Origin: a virus | DNA length: 24,652 bases | Direction: 5' to 3' (one strand) | Virus record (IMG/VR): IMGVR_UViG_3300045922_000208 | Coordinates: 1-24,652 of that record | In this document: piece after piece, positions 3,017-23,813 of the stretch | Layout: every line of letters starts with the position of its first letter | Numbering within the stretch: position 1 is the first letter of the stretch | Position numbers and translations under genes: made by a program | The notes under the pieces: model-generated | Database searches by the model: none | The model's input: only the letters and a program-made list of their open reading frames with translations | Told to the model about the DNA's origin: nothing

Positions 3017-3118
3017 TTATTTTTTTACGACATCTCCAACATCTTCAACATTGTCTGTAAGCAACTTATCAAGAGCTATTTGTGAGCGTGGAGAGTTATT
3101 GATGATTCGTTCAAAACC
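3017..3118 (-). other. Short open frame without a start codon, possible gene remnant
   Basis: In a frame different from the methyltransferase, and partly overlapping its 3' end, 33 codons are open from a TGA (3119-3121) to a TAA at 3017-3019. The translation looks protein-like and hydrophilic, ending LDKLLTDNVEDVGDVVKK. There is no ATG, GTG or upstream promoter. It may be the surviving 3' end of a gene displaced when the cassette was inserted, or chance. Confidence 0.2.
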
Positions 3119-3579
3119 TCATCTACATTAAATCCTGCTGCTACAACTTTATCATACAGAGTGTTTGCAGTAAAACCTGTTTTATGAATATCCCACTGAT
3201 CTTGTTGTCCGCCAAATATATAGCGGATAGCATCCTCATGATACCCTTCTATAATAAGACCCGCATGCCATTCTAGATTCGGAACGATTATCTCAACTTT
3301 ACCTTTCGGTTCAAGTAAGCTATGAATAATATCTAAAACTTCTTTTACCTGTTTATTTGTGAAATGTTCAAGAACATGAGATGCTCTAATAACAGAACAT
3401 TGTTCTTTATTTACATATAGTGGTAAATCAAGTATGTTACATACTAAATCTATGCCATCATAAGCTTCTATGTCATTTAAGACAAATCCCTTAGCCTGCA
3501 CTTCGTGACCTGTTGCAGGGTCTCCAGCCCCTATATCAAGCTTCATACCTTTTACATTCTTTTCAGGATTAACCCACAT
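3076..3579 (-). CDS. SAM-dependent methyltransferase (class I, small)
   Basis: This 167-residue product shows a class I Rossmann methyltransferase pattern. Motif I is KLDIGAGD (residues 13-20). An acidic strand region follows (DIEAYDGIDLVCNILDLP), then SHVLEHF at 67-73, and the hydrophobic strand EPKGKVEIIVPNLEW at about 90-104. This layout is typical of small predicted methyltransferases found beside glycosyltransferases in surface-glycan loci (COG4627-like or methyltransferase-11-like). It overlaps the preceding glycosyltransferase by 11 nt, so the two are co-translated. An internal start at MKLDIG (3546) is possible. The substrate is unknown; methylating a sugar made by the neighbouring enzymes is a reasonable inference. 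Confidence 0.75.
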   Translation of the reverse strand: MWVNPEKNVKGMKLDIGAGDPATGHEVQAKGFVLNDIEAYDGIDLVCNILDLPLYVNKEQCSVIRASHVLEHFTNKQVKEVLDIIHSLLEPKGKVEIIVPNLEWHAGLIIEGYHEDAIRYIFGGQQDQWDIHKTGFTANTLYDKVVAAGFNVDEVLNESSITLHAHK

Positions 3580-4975
3580 GAGATAAATCTAAACTTGCAT
3601 CAATATTTTCATCTCTTACAAGAGGTAGCTCCCCCTTTTCAGTTAAAGTGAAAAGTTTTTCATATCTGCTTTCATTATAAGCTTTAGCTTCCGGTAAGAA
3701 TGGCTCTTTATCTTTTAGCAAGCTTTGGTGATGTAAACATTCAGCAACATTTGTAATATCAAGTTGAATGACTGATCCAAGTTTAATTGCTCGCATTGCA
3801 ATATCTGTGTTATCAAAGCCCAGCCCATCATCTAATGCTTCCCACCAGCCATTTAATTCACGGACAAGAGATACAGGAATAGCGCCATAATTTTGTTCAA
3901 AATCAAAAGGGTTGACTGAATTATTAACCCTAGCTTTCATTCTGATATTACGATAGACAATCTCCCCTTTAATATCTGTTGATCCGCTAAACCAGTCTTC
4001 TTTTGTAAAGTCTGGTGCTTGTGTTGGCATAAAAGCAATATCTACCGGTGCAATTAAATCGTTGGGATGTCTTAGATAAATGTTGACAATTTTCTCCAGC
4101 CCATCAATAGGTGGAATAACAAAGTCTTGCAAAAATACTAATAATTCGCCGTTTGCCTCACGCATAGCTATATTATTGGCACGGACAAGTGAGTATTTTC
4201 TGCTATGTTTTTCGCCTCTAATATACCGTATATTAAGCTTGTATTTATTTGAATACTTATCTGCAAGATGTTTCCTATCTTCTGGAAAATCGTCAACTAT
4301 AATCCACTCAAAGTTTTTGTATGTTTGCTTAGATAATGCATGGGCCATTAAGTTCCACCAGCCACTTCTGATTGTTGGAGTGTACACAGTAAGTAGTGGT
4401 CTATCTTTTTCTGCTGTAAATGCTTTCGTCCATTGTTCAGATATTTTATCTATGGTATATTTTTCTGCATGTTTTTTTGCTTTCTTTCTTTCTTTTCTGA
4501 CTCGTTCAGGGTTATCCATTAAAGAAAAGAGTTCGATAAGATACGTTTGCATGCCTTCAGGTTTGCTTATATCAGCTGTTACCTTTACACCACTTTGAAC
4601 TGTTTCATCTAGTGCTGCAAGTGGTACAGTTACCGGAATAAGACCATCACGTTGAGCTTCTAGAGCAGATATACAATTTATCTCAGAAAATGTTGCAGGG
4701 TAGACCCAGAAAGTACATTCTTTTCTTAGTTTTTGTAAATCATCTTTACCTAGCCTTCCATGCTCTGTAATTCCCGGTTGTTTCATTAGTTCTATCATGT
4801 CTTGTTTCCATTTCATTCGCTCTGGATTATTAGAGTAAGCAATATCAAACAAATCCCACCCATAGCAAATATGAAGCTCTGCGTCTGGATAGTTATCTTT
4901 TATCATTTGCCAGTTGACGAGAAGATTAACTAAACCTCTGTCATAGCTTGATGTATAAATGAGTTTATGGTTCAT
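3569..4975 (-). CDS. Glycosyltransferase: C-terminal half of a GT-B enzyme fused to a GT-A domain
   Basis: Residues of about 1-187 match only the C-terminal, nucleotide-sugar-binding Rossmann domain of a GT4-type (GT-B) enzyme: KLIYTSSYDRGL at 4-15, DAELHICYGW, and the E-x7-E signature at E98/E106 (FSEINCISALEAQ). The N-terminal acceptor domain is absent. Residues of about 192-420 are a second, GT2-like GT-A domain: LTVYTPTIRSG, the acidic pair in WIIVDDF (D228/D229), ELLVFLQD (D284) and GFDNTDIAMRA. The missing acceptor half is at the end of the upstream gene, whose TGA overlaps this ATG (ATGA). The ORF is long and intact with good codon continuity. It probably modifies a glycan or virion protein; donor and acceptor are unknown. 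Confidence 0.8.
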   Translation of the reverse strand: MNHKLIYTSSYDRGLVNLLVNWQMIKDNYPDAELHICYGWDLFDIAYSNNPERMKWKQDMIELMKQPGITEHGRLGKDDLQKLRKECTFWVYPATFSEINCISALEAQRDGLIPVTVPLAALDETVQSGVKVTADISKPEGMQTYLIELFSLMDNPERVRKERKKAKKHAEKYTIDKISEQWTKAFTAEKDRPLLTVYTPTIRSGWWNLMAHALSKQTYKNFEWIIVDDFPEDRKHLADKYSNKYKLNIRYIRGEKHSRKYSLVRANNIAMREANGELLVFLQDFVIPPIDGLEKIVNIYLRHPNDLIAPVDIAFMPTQAPDFTKEDWFSGSTDIKGEIVYRNIRMKARVNNSVNPFDFEQNYGAIPVSLVRELNGWWEALDDGLGFDNTDIAMRAIKLGSVIQLDITNVAECLHHQSLLKDKEPFLPEAKAYNESRYEKLFTLTEKGELPLVRDENIDASLDLSHVG

Positions 4976-6723
4976 AAGATGCCATTTGAGATAATCATAA
5001 ACTTAGAATCTGATATGTATTTGGCAAGGTTTCTATGGTATTTTGACTTAACCATAAAAGCGTCAATTGCCTGTATATGAGACTTTTTTATATCAATAGG
5101 GTGATAGATATCATGTAGATCAACAAATATTTTCTTTGCTTTTATCTTATCTGTAAGATTCCAATTTCTCCATTGAATAAAGATGTTGAAATAATCAAAC
5201 GGATTAAAGTAAAAATACGGTAAATACCAAACTCCGTTCACCTCAATAGGCTTTTCCGGATCGCAATATACTGTTACCTTATACCCCTTTTTTACCCACT
5301 CTTCAGATAATTGAATAACAGCTGTCTCACTTCCTCCTATCCCCTTTTTCAATGATCTTCCATCCCACTTTTCAAAATGATGTCCACCCAAACTGGCATA
5401 ATAACAAATCTCATTATCTTTCCAAGTACGGGGATGTGTATACTTTTGACGCAGTTTGACACCAAATGGTTGCCCTGCTATTGCCATTGGAAGTGCATTT
5501 ATGATATCTGGAATATGTTCATCATCTCCAATATCATCCATATAGCGCACAAGTGTATCAACACTTCTGCATGCTTCATCTGCTCTGACAACACTTGTAA
5601 GAACATCTATTAATGCTTGATTTTCTTCTGTTGGTTTTTCTTTGAATAACATCTTAGCAGCCTCTAATGCTTTACTAGGATTTTTTTCTACATTGTAGAA
5701 ATACCGGTACATGATCTCAGCAAACATTATTTTTAGTCCTTCGTAATTATTTATTTTAGCTCCATTATTATCAAGATCCATCTGTGATGCGATATCAATC
5801 CAGTGTTTACACTTTTTATATTCTTTTAAGTTGTAGTACGCTGCAGCAAGACGGACATATAAAATTGGCTGGTGTGGCCATTCAGCAATTGCTTTGTGTA
5901 AAAGTGATACCGCTTCAGCAAACTCTCCGGCATGCCCCATACACTGTGCCATCAGCTCATATGCTTCTGCTCTTTCTTCGTTCCAGCCTGATTTTTTTAA
6001 GTAATCAAATCCCATTTTGATACACTCTTTCCATTGCTCTTTATCGTCCTGTTCTGCATAAATCTTCATAAGATACAACATCGTTCTTGGATCTGGATTA
6101 TCTCCCTCATCTTTAAGTTGCATCTTAAGTAGTCGCTTGTTTCGTTCCATCTTCTCAATAGCATTATCAGCGCTTGCTGTGTGAATAATGGCTATTGGTT
6201 GATCTTTGTTATAGGGAACAATTGTATATTTCATCTTAGCGCCAGCTACAGGGACAGGAGTTTCATGTAGTCTTCCTTTCCAAACATTTGTGCCAGGCCT
6301 GATTAACCGCTCTCTGTTGTGCTGAATATCTACTTTCACTAAACTATCTTCAGAAGGTTCTCCTTTGAATGTACATCCATACCAGTATTCAAAGAAGATA
6401 ACATCATAGTTTTGATTTTTAGCTTTTTCTGCAATTTTCAAAAGATACTCGCCCCCTACTAATAAGTCATCTGCATCCATCCAGAAAATATAGTCATACC
6501 CTTCAGGGACTTGTGAAAAGTTGAAGTTTCTAGCATCAGCAAATGAATCATTCCATTTGAAAGATGAGTGTTTTACTCCTTCTATTGTTTTTATCTTATC
6601 TACTGGAGTACTGGTAGATGTAATAAAAATGTCTTTTATGTAGGGCTTAATAGAGTTTATAGCTTTTACAAGGCTATTATATTCTGAATCATCTTTAACA
6701 ATTAGACAGGCAGCTACATTCAT
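4972..6723 (-). CDS. Glycosyltransferase: GT-A domain, TPR region, N-terminal half of a GT-B enzyme
   Basis: This 583-residue protein has three parts. Residues 1-200 are a GT2-like GT-A domain (AACLIVKDD, DSFADARNF, and a DxD in FWMDADD at D83/D85). Residues of about 205-400 are helical TPR-like repeats (AYELMAQCMGHAGEFAEAVS, YVRLAAAYYNLKEYKKC). Residues of about 436-583 are the N-terminal Rossmann half of a GT4-type enzyme (GIGGSETAVIQLSEEWVKKG, AFMVKSKYH, FMIISNGI). The protein stops three residues after ISNG, exactly where the hinge to the second Rossmann domain normally begins. That second domain starts the next cistron at once. The start overlaps the previous stop by 4 nt. The cassette seems dedicated to glycan synthesis or glycosylation. 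Confidence 0.8.
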   Translation of the reverse strand: MNVAACLIVKDDSEYNSLVKAINSIKPYIKDIFITSTSTPVDKIKTIEGVKHSSFKWNDSFADARNFNFSQVPEGYDYIFWMDADDLLVGGEYLLKIAEKAKNQNYDVIFFEYWYGCTFKGEPSEDSLVKVDIQHNRERLIRPGTNVWKGRLHETPVPVAGAKMKYTIVPYNKDQPIAIIHTASADNAIEKMERNKRLLKMQLKDEGDNPDPRTMLYLMKIYAEQDDKEQWKECIKMGFDYLKKSGWNEERAEAYELMAQCMGHAGEFAEAVSLLHKAIAEWPHQPILYVRLAAAYYNLKEYKKCKHWIDIASQMDLDNNGAKINNYEGLKIMFAEIMYRYFYNVEKNPSKALEAAKMLFKEKPTEENQALIDVLTSVVRADEACRSVDTLVRYMDDIGDDEHIPDIINALPMAIAGQPFGVKLRQKYTHPRTWKDNEICYYASLGGHHFEKWDGRSLKKGIGGSETAVIQLSEEWVKKGYKVTVYCDPEKPIEVNGVWYLPYFYFNPFDYFNIFIQWRNWNLTDKIKAKKIFVDLHDIYHPIDIKKSHIQAIDAFMVKSKYHRNLAKYISDSKFMIISNGIL

Positions 6724-7094
6724 ATTTTATAGTTAGTGCTTTTGAATAATGCTTGTCTTTTGACAAGTTTTGAATAAAAATTTCGATCACTGAGCGACAT
6801 ATATGGAAAAAATATTTTAAGAAGTTTGAAAAGTCTGGTAGGGTATGTAACAGGATTGTACAGATGAACATGTTTATCTCTTTCATTTTCCAGATCTATT
6901 TTTCTATCATGTCTCCAATCATTTACTTCTTGCGGGTAGTTAGCTTCCCAGAATAAAACAATTGCATCAATCAGTTTCCATCCGGCTTCTGTTGAGCAAT
7001 CTTGAGGATTGCCTAACTTATCAGCATATGCGTCTAAAGCCATTATCGATTCATATTGTGACTTAGGAATAAAAACTGTTTCGTATTCATCCAT
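6720..7094 (-). CDS. Unknown protein, first gene of the glycosyltransferase cassette
   Basis: I do not recognise this 124-residue protein. The N-terminal part is acidic and helical (MDEYETVFIPKSQYESIMAL). A tryptophan-rich middle (AGWKLIDAIVLFWEANY) leads to a basic, aromatic C-terminus (TRLFKLLKIFFPYMS) that might contact a membrane or a partner. No catalytic motif stands out. The ATG follows an extended -10 promoter (TGTTATAAT) after 5 nt, and the stop overlaps the start of the first glycosyltransferase gene. It is therefore probably part of the same function. Confidence 0.7.
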   Translation of the reverse strand: MDEYETVFIPKSQYESIMALDAYADKLGNPQDCSTEAGWKLIDAIVLFWEANYPQEVNDWRHDRKIDLENERDKHVHLYNPVTYPTRLFKLLKIFFPYMSLSDRNFYSKLVKRQALFKSTNYKI

Positions 7095-7099
7095 ACCAC

Positions 7100-7108
7100 A
7101 TTATAACA
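7100..7108 (-). promoter_or_regulatory. Extended -10 promoter of the glycosyltransferase cassette
   Basis: The minus strand reads TGTTATAAT, a match to the extended -10 form TGnTATAAT, ending 5 nt before the ATG at 7094. No TTGNWAAGTY -35 box is present, unlike the structural-gene promoters. It lies just downstream of the capsid terminator. Confidence 0.55.
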
Positions 7109-7111
7109 AAT

Positions 7112-7152
7112 AAAAAAAGCCCTCCCATTTTTTTTTGAGAGGGCTTTCTTTT
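7112..7152 (-). terminator. Rho-independent terminator after the capsid gene
   Basis: A perfect 9-bp stem is formed by AAAGCCCTC (7116-7124) and GAGGGCTTT (7139-7147). On the minus strand the stem runs directly into a T-rich tract. It sits about 10 nt beyond the capsid stop and isolates the next cassette. The plus-strand side is also T-rich, so it may act both ways. Confidence 0.85.
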
Positions 7153-7161
7153 TAACCTGCG

Positions 7162-8076
7162 TTAGAGGGTAGTTGCGTATCCAGTAGCTTTAACAGAAGC
7201 TCGCTGTGCGTAGCTTACTGTCGTAAACTCTGTTGAATACATACCATTTCGGCGCAAACCATCTTTGGCAAGTTCTTCATACTCTGGTTCATAGAGGAAT
7301 GAATGTGCAAACAATTCCTCTCTGATCAAGTAGACCGTCAAACTGCCAGCGACTTTACGGACATCCTTATGTGGAATAACCATAATAGTCTGACCAACAT
7401 CAGTATCATATACACGAATTTCATTAGTCAGTCTCTTTGCAGAGGCATCAATGTTTCGTGTCTGATTTGCTGTGAAGGTTGCAATTCGACGTTTTATAAC
7501 AATTGGGCAAAGCAAGACATCAGCAACATAGCTTGATCCTACCTGATCCCATGACAGCTGCTCAAGATTATTAAGCTCTGTTTCTGTAAACGATGTTCCA
7601 GAAGCACGGGCTGTAACATTGGTAGAGATTAACCCATCAATACCAGCCATTCCACGAGCAACGCCTGAGTTACCAGATGCAAAAACTCCGTTTACGGTAA
7701 GAAACTCCATCTTTGCTTTAAGACGCTTAAGAGCTTCAATTTTCTGAAACTCATAAGAATCTTTGCCATTGATGGTGTCAATCTTTTCCTGAGTCTTTGA
7801 CACACGGATAGCTTCATCAACGATCACTGTAGCATTACTCGATCGTTCTGGAGCAGAAAGATCGCTGTATGATGCAGCTGCTCCTTCAACAGACGGTGTT
7901 ACACTTGTTGGTCGCTCTGTGTGGTAGATAGGCCAAGAGTGCAACGTATTGGTTGCTGCTGGTGCTTTTTTAAGATTAGTGGTTAAATAGTTATCTGTAT
8001 TAGGAGAGACATCACGTAAGATATCTAAAAGACTCTCACGTCTATCTGTCCCATACGTTTGGGCTCCAAATGGCAT
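7162..8076 (-). CDS. Major capsid protein, SU10-like (DUF5309-type)
   Basis: The product is 304 residues from the ATG at 8076 (MPFGAQTYGTDRRESLLDIL). A longer frame needs a TTG at 8088. The sequence matches the SU10-type capsid family: SLLDILRDVSPNTDNYLTT at the N-terminus, then WPIYHTERPT, a central helix-rich segment (EALKRLKAKMEFLTVNG), GMAGIDGLIS, and a C-terminal HK97-like axial segment (YLIREELFAHSF, ELAKDGLRRNGMYSTEFT). These proteins self-assemble into the icosahedral shell. The gene follows the scaffold gene with an 18-nt gap and no promoter of its own, so it shares the scaffold transcript, and it is followed by a terminator. Confidence 0.88.
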   Translation of the reverse strand: MPFGAQTYGTDRRESLLDILRDVSPNTDNYLTTNLKKAPAATNTLHSWPIYHTERPTSVTPSVEGAAASYSDLSAPERSSNATVIVDEAIRVSKTQEKIDTINGKDSYEFQKIEALKRLKAKMEFLTVNGVFASGNSGVARGMAGIDGLISTNVTARASGTSFTETELNNLEQLSWDQVGSSYVADVLLCPIVIKRRIATFTANQTRNIDASAKRLTNEIRVYDTDVGQTIMVIPHKDVRKVAGSLTVYLIREELFAHSFLYEPEYEELAKDGLRRNGMYSTEFTTVSYAQRASVKATGYATTL

Positions 8077-8094
8077 ATTAATATACAAATCTTA

Positions 8095-11828: not shown

Positions 11829-11858
11829 AGTATATAACTAGCTGTCAAAATACGTCAA
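11829..11858 (-). promoter_or_regulatory. Promoter for the zinc-ribbon-like gene
   Basis: TTGACG (11858-11853) and TATACT (11834-11829) are spaced by 18 bp. The GTG start follows after 8 nt. The -35 box overlaps the stop codon of the preceding gene, and the AGTY extension of the other promoters is absent. Confidence 0.4.
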
Positions 11859-14800
11859 GCAAACGATGGCCTTCTAATTCTTAATCTTTTTACTTTTATC
11901 CGCTTAGAAGTAAAACGTCTTTTTGATCTGAGTCTTTTTGATCTGACCTTCCTTAATCTAATTCTTCTCGATTTTCTGAAAAATGATTCTGGAATGCTAC
12001 CACCTAGTTTATTCTTCAATTCTTGTTGTTGAGCCTGCAGGATTTCGATCTGCTTTAATCCTTCCTCTTGTGGTATTTCTTTTCGTTTTATTCCGCCTTT
12101 GATATCGTTGATATCAAACTCTATTGCCTTGATTCTTTTTGCGATTGCTAATTCTTGCTCTTCTTTTGTTTTTCTTTCTCCTCCTAAGAATCTTCTTAAA
12201 ACAGGTATTTGATTTATTGTTGCTCCTTGTTCATTTTGTGGTGTTTTATATTTATCTGGAATGAAAGGCCGTGTCATTCTTTCACCTATATTTGCCAATC
12301 CCGTTCCGTATCCATGAACTAACGCCTCAATTTTTGCAGGCGATGCGTTTATTTTATCGCCTATCATTCTATATAATGGTCGAGTGTATGCGGTATCTTG
12401 ATATTTTGCAGGATATGCTTTTTTGTATTCGGGGACTATCTCTTTATCAAAGAAAAAGTTTTTGTTTACTGCTACCTCTATTATTGGACGAAGAGCAGTT
12501 GGGAATATATCACCTACATTACTAACTGGTGAAAATGCTTTTAAGACATCTACTAACGCATTCTTTACATCTCCTCCTTTATTATCCGCCATCCTTAAAA
12601 ACTCTTCAGTAGGATTTGCCAATTGACCAATGTCGCCTTTTGGTATTGCTATATACTGCGCTCCACCCAACTGCGGTATTGGAGTATCAGATAGCATAAA
12701 TATAAATTTCCTTTTTTTGTCTGTCTCTGATACCACTCGTTCATCATTGTATGATTCAAACTGTCTATTCCAGGCATACAACACTAATGCCGGGACTTGT
12801 GAAATCAATCCAACTCTAAACCCTACACCCACAGGATCGTTTTTGAAACTTCGCAATAAGCGATCAACACCCTGCAATCTTGCGTTAAGGAACGCATAAA
12901 GAGCATTTATCGCTTGTGTTTTTGAACCATGTCTAGAAAAGTTTGTAGTTGCTTCTTGCGCCCAGTAAGCAGCCTCTTTAAGTGCTTCCTCACGTGATAA
13001 TCCTTTTTTAAGACCTTCGTTAAGTATCTCTTCAAAAACAGCTATTCTTGTAGGTGTGTCAGAATACTCTGAAATTGTTTGTAACACCTTCAAAAGACCG
13101 CTCGGTTTTAATACCTCAATTGCCTTTGATTTTGTATCTCCAGCTATCTCTGCCACAGTTTTCTGCAGCATTGGTCTATCTATTGCAACTCTTGTAGTAC
13201 TTTTCGCTCCTTGTTTCAGAAACTCTTGATATATCTCATCTTTTTTCATCATATGAGCAAGTCCTTTAACCCACTTAAGAGGATTAAGACCAACATTGAC
13301 AAAAGCCGATTGGAGATCTATCAATACATTAGGAACAAAAAAATCTGGGTTTGATCCTGTTGCAGAGGCTCTAAACACTGCTGTTGGATATTGGAGTATT
13401 TTAAATATTGTAGCTAATGCTTCTTTATTTAACCCTTTTGCAGCCTCTGCCACCTCAATAGGGACTTGATAATGTTTTACTTTGCCATTGACAAAAAGTG
13501 AGATATTTGGCGTGTTTCCAACTTTACCTTTTATTTCTTTTATCATTCCCTCCGGTAGATCATCTTTAAGAGATACAATAGTTTGTGCTACCTCTTGTCT
13601 TTTAGCCAATGCAACCATTTTGTATGTTGCTTCTAAAATTGATTCGATAGGATCAACTATTTCTTTATCACTTCCTTTTATGCTATAGATAACATCCTGA
13701 CTACTAACTGATCCTGCTCCTTTGCTTGGTGGAACAAAGCCTAAAAACTCATCCACCCGATCCATTACCCGCTTGAAAGGAATATAAAAATTATTATTTT
13801 TTCGCATGTTTTTGTATCCTATTTGACTCATTATTCCGGTATCAACAAGATACGTTTTGACCATTCTGTCTTGGTATTCGTATAGTTTTTTAAGAGTTTC
13901 ACCTATTGATTTCATCTTTTCCTCACCCAATCTTTCTTTTATTGCCTTTAACTTTTCTAATGCTTGTTTTTGCTTAGGTGATCCTTTTATGCCACGACTA
14001 GCTAACTCAATGTCTCTCATTGCAATGGCCGCCTCTCTTAAATCATTTAGATTTTGTTCTTTAAGAATTTGAGTCAACTCAAAATCAACATGGTATTGTG
14101 CGGTTGAACCTGCCCCATAATAACCTGCTAATGCATGTCTCATCTCCTTTGCCTTGCCAGCCATTTTAGCTACATAATTAAGTGGATGAAATTCATTTAC
14201 AGTTTCTGTATAGAGCTTATTGAATTTTGCTTTTAATTTTGAGATAAAGCCATCTACTGATGAATCACCTTCTTGTGCTGGAGGCTTTGTTGGTGGAGAT
14301 CCTTCCCCTATTTTTTTTGGTGGCTTTTGTGGTGGCACACCCTCTCCTGATCCTTTTGGTGGTTTTTGTAGTTGTATTCCTTCTGGCTCTGTCGGTTTCT
14401 GTTGAGATAAGTCGATAGATTTCTGATCTGAAAAGGTTGTTGGTGGCTGTGATGGTACTATTGGCTGCTTTTTGATAATTGGATACTTAGAAAACTTGAT
14501 ATTTTGATCTCCCTGCATAGCACTTCTTATTCCAGTTTTACCAACAGCAGCTCCAAGTGTAAAATCAATTAACGCATCCTGGACAGTATACTTTGCATCA
14601 GGTATCACTGCCTTTTGCATTACTACTCCTTCTGGAATATTTAATGTGCCGACAGCTGCTCTTTCTGCTAAGAAGTTAATGAAATCCCGTTTTTTCCCTG
14701 CTGGTACTTTGCTTAACGCATTCAGCACTGTCTTGCTCTTCATTAATTTTTCGCTAATCTTATCTATCATTGGATTAGTTAGCATTCCTATTGCCTTGTA

Positions 14801-15385
14801 CGCACCTGCAGAGGAAATACCCTCACCTACACCTTTAGCAAATCTATATGGATCATTTTTATCTCCGAAAACTTGATTTATTCCACCACTTAAACCACCT
14901 AGAGCTAATGTTTGCAAAGGGTTTGCAACTGCTAGCGGAGAGGCTGCCAGCTTCCCACCAGAAAAGAGCATTCTTTTATACGGATCAACAAAGTTTTTTT
15001 TAGGGTCAACTGTGCTTTGAAGTGTTTCTGCAGTTGCTGATGTAAAATCTTTTGCAGTATTGAGAAATGGTTTTGTAATAGAACCTAGTATATTGCTTTT
15101 TGGTATTTGTTGTACTATTGGATCTATCGTTTTTCTTGCCTGATTAGCCACTTGCTGGTATGCATTTGACGTGTCTTTCCATGCCTGAGATGCGGCTTTT
15201 TGCACAACGGGGACAATGGGCTTTAAGCTTTCTGCTGTTTGTCCGGTAAACCCTACATACCCTCCAGGACGAATATCAGCAACAAAATCATTTTTAGCTT
15301 GAATTATAGGCTTAATGAATGTCTTGTACCCTTTATCAAATGTTTCACGGGCTTTATTTATGGTGTCTTGGAAAAAATTTGCCAT
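11855..15385 (-). CDS. Very large internal virion protein candidate with LPD38-like region and basic tail
   Basis: This 1176-residue protein starts MANFFQDTINKARETFDKGY. Residues 1-310 are Ala/Gly-rich with amphipathic helices (PLQTLALGGLSGGINQVFGD). A low-complexity Pro/Lys linker follows at about 315-375, with three variants of QKPPKGSGEG. Residues of about 380-1000 are mainly helical and resemble the large polyvalent protein-associated regions (LPD38-like) of injected phage proteins: NPDFFVPNVLIDLQSAFVNV, then EEALKEAAYWAQEATTNFSR, then LYAFLNARLQGVDRLLRSF. The last 40 residues are about half Arg/Lys (RKVRSKRLRSKRR). The position among internal-protein genes and a late promoter fit a protein packaged with and perhaps ejected with the DNA. 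The LPD38 assignment is by eye. Confidence 0.65.
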   Translation of the reverse strand: MANFFQDTINKARETFDKGYKTFIKPIIQAKNDFVADIRPGGYVGFTGQTAESLKPIVPVVQKAASQAWKDTSNAYQQVANQARKTIDPIVQQIPKSNILGSITKPFLNTAKDFTSATAETLQSTVDPKKNFVDPYKRMLFSGGKLAASPLAVANPLQTLALGGLSGGINQVFGDKNDPYRFAKGVGEGISSAGAYKAIGMLTNPMIDKISEKLMKSKTVLNALSKVPAGKKRDFINFLAERAAVGTLNIPEGVVMQKAVIPDAKYTVQDALIDFTLGAAVGKTGIRSAMQGDQNIKFSKYPIIKKQPIVPSQPPTTFSDQKSIDLSQQKPTEPEGIQLQKPPKGSGEGVPPQKPPKKIGEGSPPTKPPAQEGDSSVDGFISKLKAKFNKLYTETVNEFHPLNYVAKMAGKAKEMRHALAGYYGAGSTAQYHVDFELTQILKEQNLNDLREAAIAMRDIELASRGIKGSPKQKQALEKLKAIKERLGEEKMKSIGETLKKLYEYQDRMVKTYLVDTGIMSQIGYKNMRKNNNFYIPFKRVMDRVDEFLGFVPPSKGAGSVSSQDVIYSIKGSDKEIVDPIESILEATYKMVALAKRQEVAQTIVSLKDDLPEGMIKEIKGKVGNTPNISLFVNGKVKHYQVPIEVAEAAKGLNKEALATIFKILQYPTAVFRASATGSNPDFFVPNVLIDLQSAFVNVGLNPLKWVKGLAHMMKKDEIYQEFLKQGAKSTTRVAIDRPMLQKTVAEIAGDTKSKAIEVLKPSGLLKVLQTISEYSDTPTRIAVFEEILNEGLKKGLSREEALKEAAYWAQEATTNFSRHGSKTQAINALYAFLNARLQGVDRLLRSFKNDPVGVGFRVGLISQVPALVLYAWNRQFESYNDERVVSETDKKRKFIFMLSDTPIPQLGGAQYIAIPKGDIGQLANPTEEFLRMADNKGGDVKNALVDVLKAFSPVSNVGDIFPTALRPIIEVAVNKNFFFDKEIVPEYKKAYPAKYQDTAYTRPLYRMIGDKINASPAKIEALVHGYGTGLANIGERMTRPFIPDKYKTPQNEQGATINQIPVLRRFLGGERKTKEEQELAIAKRIKAIEFDINDIKGGIKRKEIPQEEGLKQIEILQAQQQELKNKLGGSIPESFFRKSRRIRLRKVRSKRLRSKRRFTSKRIKVKRLRIRRPSFA

Positions 15386-22336: not shown

Positions 22337-22480
22337 TCTGACATACTCCCACGACTAAAGCCAGTGGGGTTCTAAGGTCGCACAGCTTCTTTGCGTTGCC
22401 TTTTGGGGCGTGTCAGACTGCCCTTGCAAACCTCTCTTCTCGGCTTGCAATTGATAGATGCCTTGAGATGTTTCTGCTAT
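22337..22480 (-). ncRNA. Probable omega RNA (TnpB guide RNA) at the tnpB 3' end
   Basis: In this family the right-end transcript overlapping the tnpB 3' end forms the omega RNA, with the guide taken from DNA just outside the element. Here the tnpB stop codon is inside the end hairpin (22348-22368), as expected. If the end is at GTATGTCA (near 22339), the guide would be about 22323-22338 read on the minus strand. The upstream limit is a guess. Confidence 0.45.
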
Positions 22481-23383
22481 GTTGAAAGCTGCATTAACAT
22501 CGGCATTATCTACGTGTCCACAAGAACACTTAAAACTTTTGTCGTTTCGTACACCTAGTTGACCGCACCTCGAACAACACTTACTGGTATAGGCTGGCTC
22601 AACATAGCTGACTGGTACTCCCGCTAAAAGAGCTTTGTATTCTATGAACTTCGCTAGTTGATAGAAGCTCCAAGAGTTGAGGGCGTACTTGAAACTTTTT
22701 CTTGATTTTGTTTGTCGTATGCCTTGCAAATCTTCTAACCTTATATCTCCTTTCTGTTGACTTGCAATGTCTACTATTTTTCGTGATATTTTATGATTTA
22801 AGTCTTTTACTATTCTCTGCTCCCTATTTTTGATTTTCTTAACCACCTTGAACAATCCTTTTTTCTGCAAATTCTTTCTTATGTTTTTGTATTTTTTATG
22901 AATATGCTCCGCCTTTTTTCCAAGTTTATAGATTTTTCCCGTTTTCTTAACAGCAACTACAGCACAGTGTCCTGTAGCGTTTAGGTCAACTCCCACTGAT
23001 GTTTCAGGGATATATTGAGGCTGTTCTTTGACTGTTATTGATACATAAGCATATTCATTACCAATCTCAACTTGATTTATTTTTTCAAATGTTTTTGTGA
23101 ATGGAAATTCCAATTTTAAGCAGGGTATGATTATCGTTCCGTTTTGGAATTTTACGCCCTGACTGGGAATAGTGAGCTTGACAGATTTGATTACTTTTGC
23201 CTTCCAATTTCTTCCGTATTTTCTAAGAATTTGATTACTGATAATAGATTTTAGACCGTAGTGGGAAACGTACTTTGTAGACAATTTGTCTCTGTTTACT
23301 AAAGCAAACTCGGCTACCTTTTTAGCAAGATTAAGTTCGTGGGCAAAGTCTTTTTGGTGCTTAACATTGTACGTGAGTATCAT
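22355..23383 (-). CDS. tnpB: TnpB RNA-guided nuclease (IS605 orfB)
   Basis: The product is 342 residues from ATG at 23383 (MILTYNVKHQKDFAHEL). A frame 12 codons longer (23419) is less likely because a perfect TTGACA-N18-TATAAT promoter ends 6 nt before 23383. The RuvC residues are intact: D133 in GVDLNATGH, E217 in IRLEDLQGI, D295 in DNADVNAAFN. The zinc finger is C270/C273 (CSRC) and C286/C288 (CSC). TnpB cuts DNA next to a short target motif using an omega RNA and favours retention of the element. The C-terminus (LEPHWL) is encoded inside the end hairpin, typical of the family. Confidence 0.9.
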   Translation of the reverse strand: MILTYNVKHQKDFAHELNLAKKVAEFALVNRDKLSTKYVSHYGLKSIISNQILRKYGRNWKAKVIKSVKLTIPSQGVKFQNGTIIIPCLKLEFPFTKTFEKINQVEIGNEYAYVSITVKEQPQYIPETSVGVDLNATGHCAVVAVKKTGKIYKLGKKAEHIHKKYKNIRKNLQKKGLFKVVKKIKNREQRIVKDLNHKISRKIVDIASQQKGDIRLEDLQGIRQTKSRKSFKYALNSWSFYQLAKFIEYKALLAGVPVSYVEPAYTSKCCSRCGQLGVRNDKSFKCSCGHVDNADVNAAFNIAETSQGIYQLQAEKRGLQGQSDTPQKATQRSCATLEPHWL

Positions 23384-23385
23384 AC

Positions 23386-23419
23386 TTGAATTATACAATA
23401 TCCAATGATATAATGTCAA
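23386..23419. promoter_or_regulatory. Interlocked divergent promoters of tnpA and tnpB
   Basis: For tnpB (minus): TTGACA 23419-23414, TATAAT 23395-23390, 18-bp spacer, ATG after 6 nt. For tnpA (plus): TTGAAT 23386-23391, TATAAT 23409-23414, 17-bp spacer, ATG after 6 nt. The boxes of one lie inside the other, so both cannot be bound by polymerase at once. Both mRNAs should be leaderless. Confidence 0.75.
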
Positions 23420-23420
23420 T

Positions 23421-23813
23421 ATGAGATGGAAAACTTCTGTTACAGCTGTCTACAATCTAAGTTATCACCTTATTTGGTGTCCGAAATATCGTAGACCTGT
23501 TCTAACTGGTGAAATTCAAAAAAGATTGTTGGAATTGCTAAAAGAGAAAGCCAATAAGATTGAGGTAGAAATTGTGGAGGCTAATGTTATGCCAGACCAT
23601 GTTCATCTGTTTGTGAGAACTAAACCAATACATCAACCACAATTTGTTGTTGGGAATTTGAAGGGATACACAAGCAAAATACTAAGACAAGAATTTCCCA
23701 AATTAAAATCAAGACTTCCAACACTTTGGACACGAAGTTATTACGTTGATAGTGTTGGGAAGTTGAATGAATATACAGTCAGAAAATATATTGAAGAGCA
23801 AAAAGGAAAATGA
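23421..23813 (+). CDS. tnpA: TnpA single-strand transposase (Y1, IS200/IS605 family)
   Basis: This 130-residue protein has full family length. The start MRWKTSVTAVYNLSYHLIWC, then PKYRRPVL, is characteristic. The HUH metal-binding motif is H60-V-H62 in MPDHVHLFV, and the catalytic tyrosine is Y123 in RKYIEEQ. The dimeric enzyme cuts and joins single-stranded ends at the subterminal hairpins, without target duplication. It is divergent from tnpB with starts 38 bp apart and its mRNA is predicted to be leaderless. No frameshift or missing residue is seen, so the element could be autonomous. Confidence 0.93.
   Translation: MRWKTSVTAVYNLSYHLIWCPKYRRPVLTGEIQKRLLELLKEKANKIEVEIVEANVMPDHVHLFVRTKPIHQPQFVVGNLKGYTSKILRQEFPKLKSRLPTLWTRSYYVDSVGKLNEYTVRKYIEEQKGK

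Follow-up and report, generated by a model that had tools for sequence, protein, structure and literature searches.

ALG13/ALG14 and the bacterial and archaeal EpsE/EpsF are split GT-B enzymes, in which one active site is formed by two polypeptides as the outcome of an ancient gene split (PMC8993221). The same division of labor has been engineered, as the acceptor and donor halves of a GT-B enzyme that are made separately self-assemble and are active (PMC10937113). Phages provide a second type of precedent. The split nrdA of phage Aeh1, which is found with mobE, is fully functional, and other phage genes, namely, T4 gene 60 (with mobA) and gene 43 of phage 25, have likewise come to be in pieces by homing endonuclease insertion (PMC2988022). 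Furthermore, homing genes have been documented at the borders of exchange between phages (PMC10448857). Beyond these cases, a literature search covering few subscription journals found no split GT4 enzyme and no split or heterodimeric glycosyltransferase, and none of the matches listed linked phage glycosyltransferase fission to homing endonucleases. Here, we describe a phage locus in which a GT4-like GT-B enzyme is encoded in two pieces and compare it with its split and fused relatives.

RESULTS

Two overlapping cistrons encode the halves of a GT-B domain

The window, i.e., the whole 24,652-base virus record that was analyzed, carries tailed-phage genes for a terminase, a portal, and a major head protein. 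The major head protein gene (7162..8088, minus strand) lies directly upstream of a gene run on the same strand that comprises a 124 aa ORF (6720..7094), two glycosyltransferase cistrons (4972..6723 and 3569..4975), and a methyltransferase-like ORF (3076..3579) overlapping the end of the downstream cistron. The 124 aa ORF shares a stop/start overlap with the upstream cistron and has a homologue in 35 split loci, and in 45 split relatives and 29 fused ones, a major head protein is encoded at most 1.5 kb upstream of the glycosyltransferase gene. Elsewhere in the window, an IS200/IS605-type element is present within the phage contig (22355-23813), with a Y1 transposase TnpA (23421-23813, plus strand) and a divergent TnpB (22355-23419, minus strand) that has a Cas12f1-like TNB domain. 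A 1176 aa protein (11855-15385) with an LPD38 domain and a highly basic C-terminal tail is perhaps a virion or injected polyvalent protein.

The upstream cistron encodes a 583 aa protein ending in FMIISNGIL. It combines a GT2-like GT-A domain with its DxD motif as MDADD (about 6184-6723, minus strand), a TPR region (about 5434-6171, minus strand), and the acceptor half of a GT-B domain (4975-5427, minus strand), which carries GGSE and HD motifs and ends in NGIL. The downstream cistron encodes a 468 aa protein with the N-terminus MNHKLIYTSSYDRGL. This chain opens with the donor-half strand LIYTSSYDRGL and joins a GT-B donor half with SSYDRGL and E-x7-E motifs (about 4415-4975, minus strand) to a second GT2-like GT-A domain (about 3572-4408, minus strand). 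Stop and start codons of the two cistrons overlap as ATGA at the GT-B hinge (4972..4975, minus strand), with no linker after NGI(L), just as the initial annotation had described. Its assignment of the acceptor half to the end of one chain and of the donor half to the start of the next agrees with the Pfam domain content: the upstream chain matched GT2, TPR, and Glyco_transf_4 (E 1.6e-5, slightly below the gathering score), and the downstream chain matched Glycos_transf_1 (E 8.9e-6, slightly below the gathering score) and GT2. The presence of GT2 in both chains also bears out the claim that each half is fused to its own GT-A domain, and the E-x7-E motif is indeed intact, with both glutamates in place (E98 and E106 of the downstream chain P0001).

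The break is shared by 51 loci and was inherited

IMG/VR, GTDB contigs, and INPHARED were scanned for relatives, and domain HMMs were then run on all fetched loci. Both halves were found in 95 distinct loci, of which 51 are split at the hinge and 44 are fused, the latter being the single-chain homologues that had been sought. The shared break extends to relatives at about 30-40% identity, and its occurrence at the same place in 51 of 95 distinct relatives is far beyond chance. Fusion to GT-A and TPR is family-wide for the acceptor half, but this does not hold for the GT-A of the donor half, which among the splits occurs only in the window's subclade; outside this subclade, the donor half stands alone with about 190 aa. 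A donor half lies downstream of every split acceptor half that has enough flanking DNA, and lone acceptor or donor halves were seen at contig ends only.

A tree was built from both halves, with the linker excluded, for 90 sequences, 48 of them split. A single clade (SH-aLRT 100) holds 45 of these 48, with no re-fusion seen within it, and the remaining three (L021, L046, and L052) lie among fused relatives and represent separate splits. Four state changes were counted in total, at least three of which are forced by well-supported branches. L062, which has a short acceptor half and was left off the tree, may be an additional independent split. Since one split clade and three separate splits are found among fused relatives, the fused state, in the order GT-A, TPR, and GT-B, was likely that of the ancestor. 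The split is thus a genuine, inherited, and long-lived gene fission, although the original cause of fission in the large old clade is not recoverable.

Both halves are conserved and are predicted to form one GT-B fold

Residues of both halves are conserved in split and fused forms alike. GGSE, an arginine, and HD in the acceptor half, as well as an arginine and the first glutamate of E-x7-E in the donor half, are invariant or nearly so; this first glutamate is found in all 91 aligned family sequences, and the second position is E, D, K, or N in the splits. dN/dS values ranged from 0.07 to 0.29 across both halves (close pairs with unsaturated dS), and both halves are under purifying selection.

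Docking of the halves was addressed with a surrogate, L079, a relative whose halves are separated by a single in-frame TAA and a spacer of 51 residues; it was folded as one chain with the TAA read as Gly. The AF2 input alignment consisted of split relatives only; 4 of 73 further rows span the junction with meaningless in-frame spacer sequence, and the acceptor rows stray by at most 2 residues. The resulting model had a pLDDT of 91.2 and a pTM of 0.86, with the spacer alone poorly modeled. By Foldseek and VIA-align, it matched MshA (Z 30.4; 313 residues at an rmsd of 2.7 Å) and PimA (Z 30.2; about 310 residues), matches to full-length GT4 enzymes spanned both halves, and the top structural matches listed were GT4-type and other retaining GT-B enzymes. 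As a model, the L079 surrogate is a confident, complete GT4-type GT-B fold and, to the extent that a split relative read as one chain can speak for two chains, sustains the earlier proposal that the halves dock as GT-B. The docking in this model partly reflects AF2's prior, since AF2 knows GT-B folds well. For the GT-A and TPR regions of the upstream chain, the best fold match was to the SunS/ThuS S-glycosyltransferases (PDB 7msn and 7msk, E 5e-18).

These data also bear on whether the halves could work apart, the acceptor half as a relic or scaffold and the donor half in the service of another partner. Such a separation would suit L021, in which the halves are 2 kb apart and the donor half has just 196 aa, and would suit the merely moderate correlation between the identities of the two halves (r = 0.69). 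However, the halves co-occur in order, their cleft residues are invariant, both evolve under purifying selection, and the surrogate predicts a confident joint fold, so that we consider separate functions unlikely. Most likely, as in ALG13/ALG14, the two chains would assemble into one GT-B.

Arrangement of the hinge varies among split relatives

In fused forms, the linker between NG(I) and the donor half is 13-18 residues long, in keeping with the initial remark that the expected linker is nearly absent from the window. A stop codon follows 0-4 codons past NGI in nearly all split forms, and up to 14 codons past it in a few. The stops after the acceptor half are TGA in 29, TAA in 18, and TAG in 4 of the 51 splits, all three frame relations between the halves are represented, and the stop-to-start gap ranges from -20 to +2070 nt. 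Two arrangements are common. In one (the window, L002, and L010, among others), the cistrons overlap as ATGA; in the other (L003, L004, L005, L091, and L099, among others), the ATG of the donor half lies within the AAT-GGN codons for N-G. L038 and L009 show local frame breaks resembling indels, and neither was relied on.

Programmed ribosomal frameshifting or readthrough could in principle yield a fused protein beside a truncated one; a -1 shift would suffice in the window, and the fused form would restore a single chain. The shifts needed in relatives vary, however (0, 1, or 2), many relatives have 100-2070 nt with other genes between the halves, and donor halves begin with start codons of their own, preceded in some cases by an SD-like GGAGG. 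We thus find recoding very improbable, and a slippery site is unnecessary because the halves of relatives occur in all three frame relations and up to 2 kb apart.

Several hinges contain other genes. In L021 (MW202497.1), a phage-encoded GroEL (Cpn60) gene (5640-7208) and two small genes lie between the glycosyltransferase halves. Small membrane-protein-like ORFs (47-50 aa) that start in or near the end of the acceptor half are found between the halves in L006 (5862-6005), L034 (5288-5440), and L035 (5846-5998). L039, which shares about 90% identity with L030, has an additional hinge ORF, and both flanks of this ORF match a stretch of about 20 nt in L030 (about 5991-6010), like a short duplication.

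HNH endonuclease genes occur at some hinges

Eight relatives carry HNH genes at the hinge, which were detected with Pfam in six (L034, L035, L042, L046, L093, and L153; in L035, NUMOD3 scored above the cut-off and HNH below it) and with PHROGs in two (L087 and L086, the latter reaching the contig end before any donor half). PHROGs matches also make nuclease remnants likely at the hinges of L027 and L041. Most split hinges have no HNH gene, and none is present at the window's own hinge, where the halves overlap as ATGA. With 32 over-cut-off HNH matches in 45 split records (1.21 Mb), about 0.8 would be expected at the 45 hinges under an assumed gene density, compared with 5 observed (P about 0.001).

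L034 and L035 share 99.6% identity in the 5.0 kb preceding the hinge and the 7.4 kb following it. The hinge segment itself differs (5078-6027 in L034 versus 4976-6027 in L035): the final portion of the acceptor half has been replaced, and different HNH genes are differently placed. Judged from these sequences, the pattern is the one expected from homing with co-conversion, and we read it as a recent exchange, associated with an endonuclease, at a hinge that had been split before. Homing endonucleases thus probably act on the GT-B junction, since two loci so nearly identical elsewhere differ just there. They may also have made at least one split. An HNH gene accompanies the independent split of L046, where the HNH ORF ends in an apparent copy of an acceptor-half tail, LPEEKVFITSNGL; this locus is compatible with HNH insertion as the cause of the split. 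In the main clade, HNH genes may have arrived later than the split, because most hinges are without them and HNH genes also enter ordinary junctions.

HNH genes are often carried by group I introns, and L034 and L042 both have a donor-half 5′ stub (MKHHKLFWGSSYDR and MKNLKLFYGSSYDR, respectively) ahead of the HNH gene, as if the halves were exons of one message spliced by a self-splicing intron. However, past the HNH gene, where the complete donor-half start is found, the entire stub sequence occurs again, an arrangement that an intron would not produce. Moreover, most splits have no such insert, the stops right after NGI are conserved, and no Rfam intron match was obtained at gathering thresholds, making splicing a highly improbable account. 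Least credible of all is a base missed at 4970-4976 by sequencing or assembly, a concern raised initially. Such an error would suit a metagenomic contig whose halves lie in different frames with a 4 nt overlap, but it is refuted because 51 distinct phage loci share the break, among which three stop codons and three frames are used, gaps reach 2 kb, and intergenic contents differ (whole genes in some), the linker being absent rather than frameshifted.

DISCUSSION

We propose that an ancestral single-chain phage protein of the order GT-A(SunS-like)-TPR-GT-B underwent fission at the GT-B interdomain linker. In the window lineage, the acceptor half, with its GT-A and TPR, and the donor half, with a further GT-A, would then have become two overlapping cistrons that are probably translationally coupled. 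Their two polypeptides would associate in the infected cell and rebuild one donor/acceptor cleft, resulting in an enzyme of two chains and three sites, the most likely role of which would be to assemble a glycan on a virion protein. This last role is proposed because the gene adjoins that of the major head protein and the GT-A/TPR regions resemble SunS/ThuS; by analogy, the two-chain GT-B is perhaps part of a SunS-like virion glycosylation complex. In some lineages, HNH homing endonucleases would cause or maintain the break, as we infer from their presence at eight hinges, including the independent split of L046, and from the difference between L034 and L035. Taken together, we regard this explanation, from genuine fission at the linker and reassociation of the chains to a virion glycan and an HNH role in some lineages, as highly probable. 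A bolder extension is doubtful, though conceivable: HNH genes would repeatedly attack the hinge and leave two separately inherited half-enzymes, and the broken hinge would then be a recombination joint at which phages exchange half-modules of a virion-glycosylating complex and, perhaps with them, specificity for donor or acceptor.

If correct, this would be a natural and widespread two-chain GT4-like GT-B in phages, and would add a glycosyltransferase to the few phage enzymes known to be encoded in pieces with a homing endonuclease at the breakpoint. The family offers a large comparative series, with one old fission, at least three independent ones, and varied hinge inserts, and its single-chain homologues allow direct comparison of how GT-B halves meet and whether splitting alters specificity. 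Annotation pipelines would label such halves as fragments.

Like ALG13/ALG14 and EpsE/EpsF, the acceptor and donor halves are encoded by separate genes that are found together (51 loci). Those enzymes, however, belong to a MurG/GT28-related lineage acting on lipid-linked acceptors, whereas the phage halves resemble GT4 enzymes (PimA and MshA). Also unlike ALG13/ALG14, they are encoded by phages and carry fused GT-A and TPR domains, with HNH genes at the junction in some relatives. The two-chain GT-B of PMC10937113 is artificial, while the phage split is natural. The likeness to SunS/ThuS is limited to the GT-A and TPR regions and excludes the GT-B half, and peptide glycosylation is putative here. 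The resemblance to Aeh1 nrdA/mobE, T4 gene 60/mobA, and phage 25 gene 43 lies in a phage enzyme gene in two pieces with an endonuclease gene at the break (eight relatives), and, by analogy with the Aeh1 nrdA type, the separate chains would be expected to reassemble. Insertion as the first cause is a feature of the Aeh1, T4, and phage 25 cases and is only conjectural for the main glycosyltransferase clade. Moreover, those cases concern enzymes of DNA metabolism, whereas here a glycosyltransferase is cut at its domain hinge, and, in contrast to them, the split is fixed in a 45-member clade and has been repeated independently.
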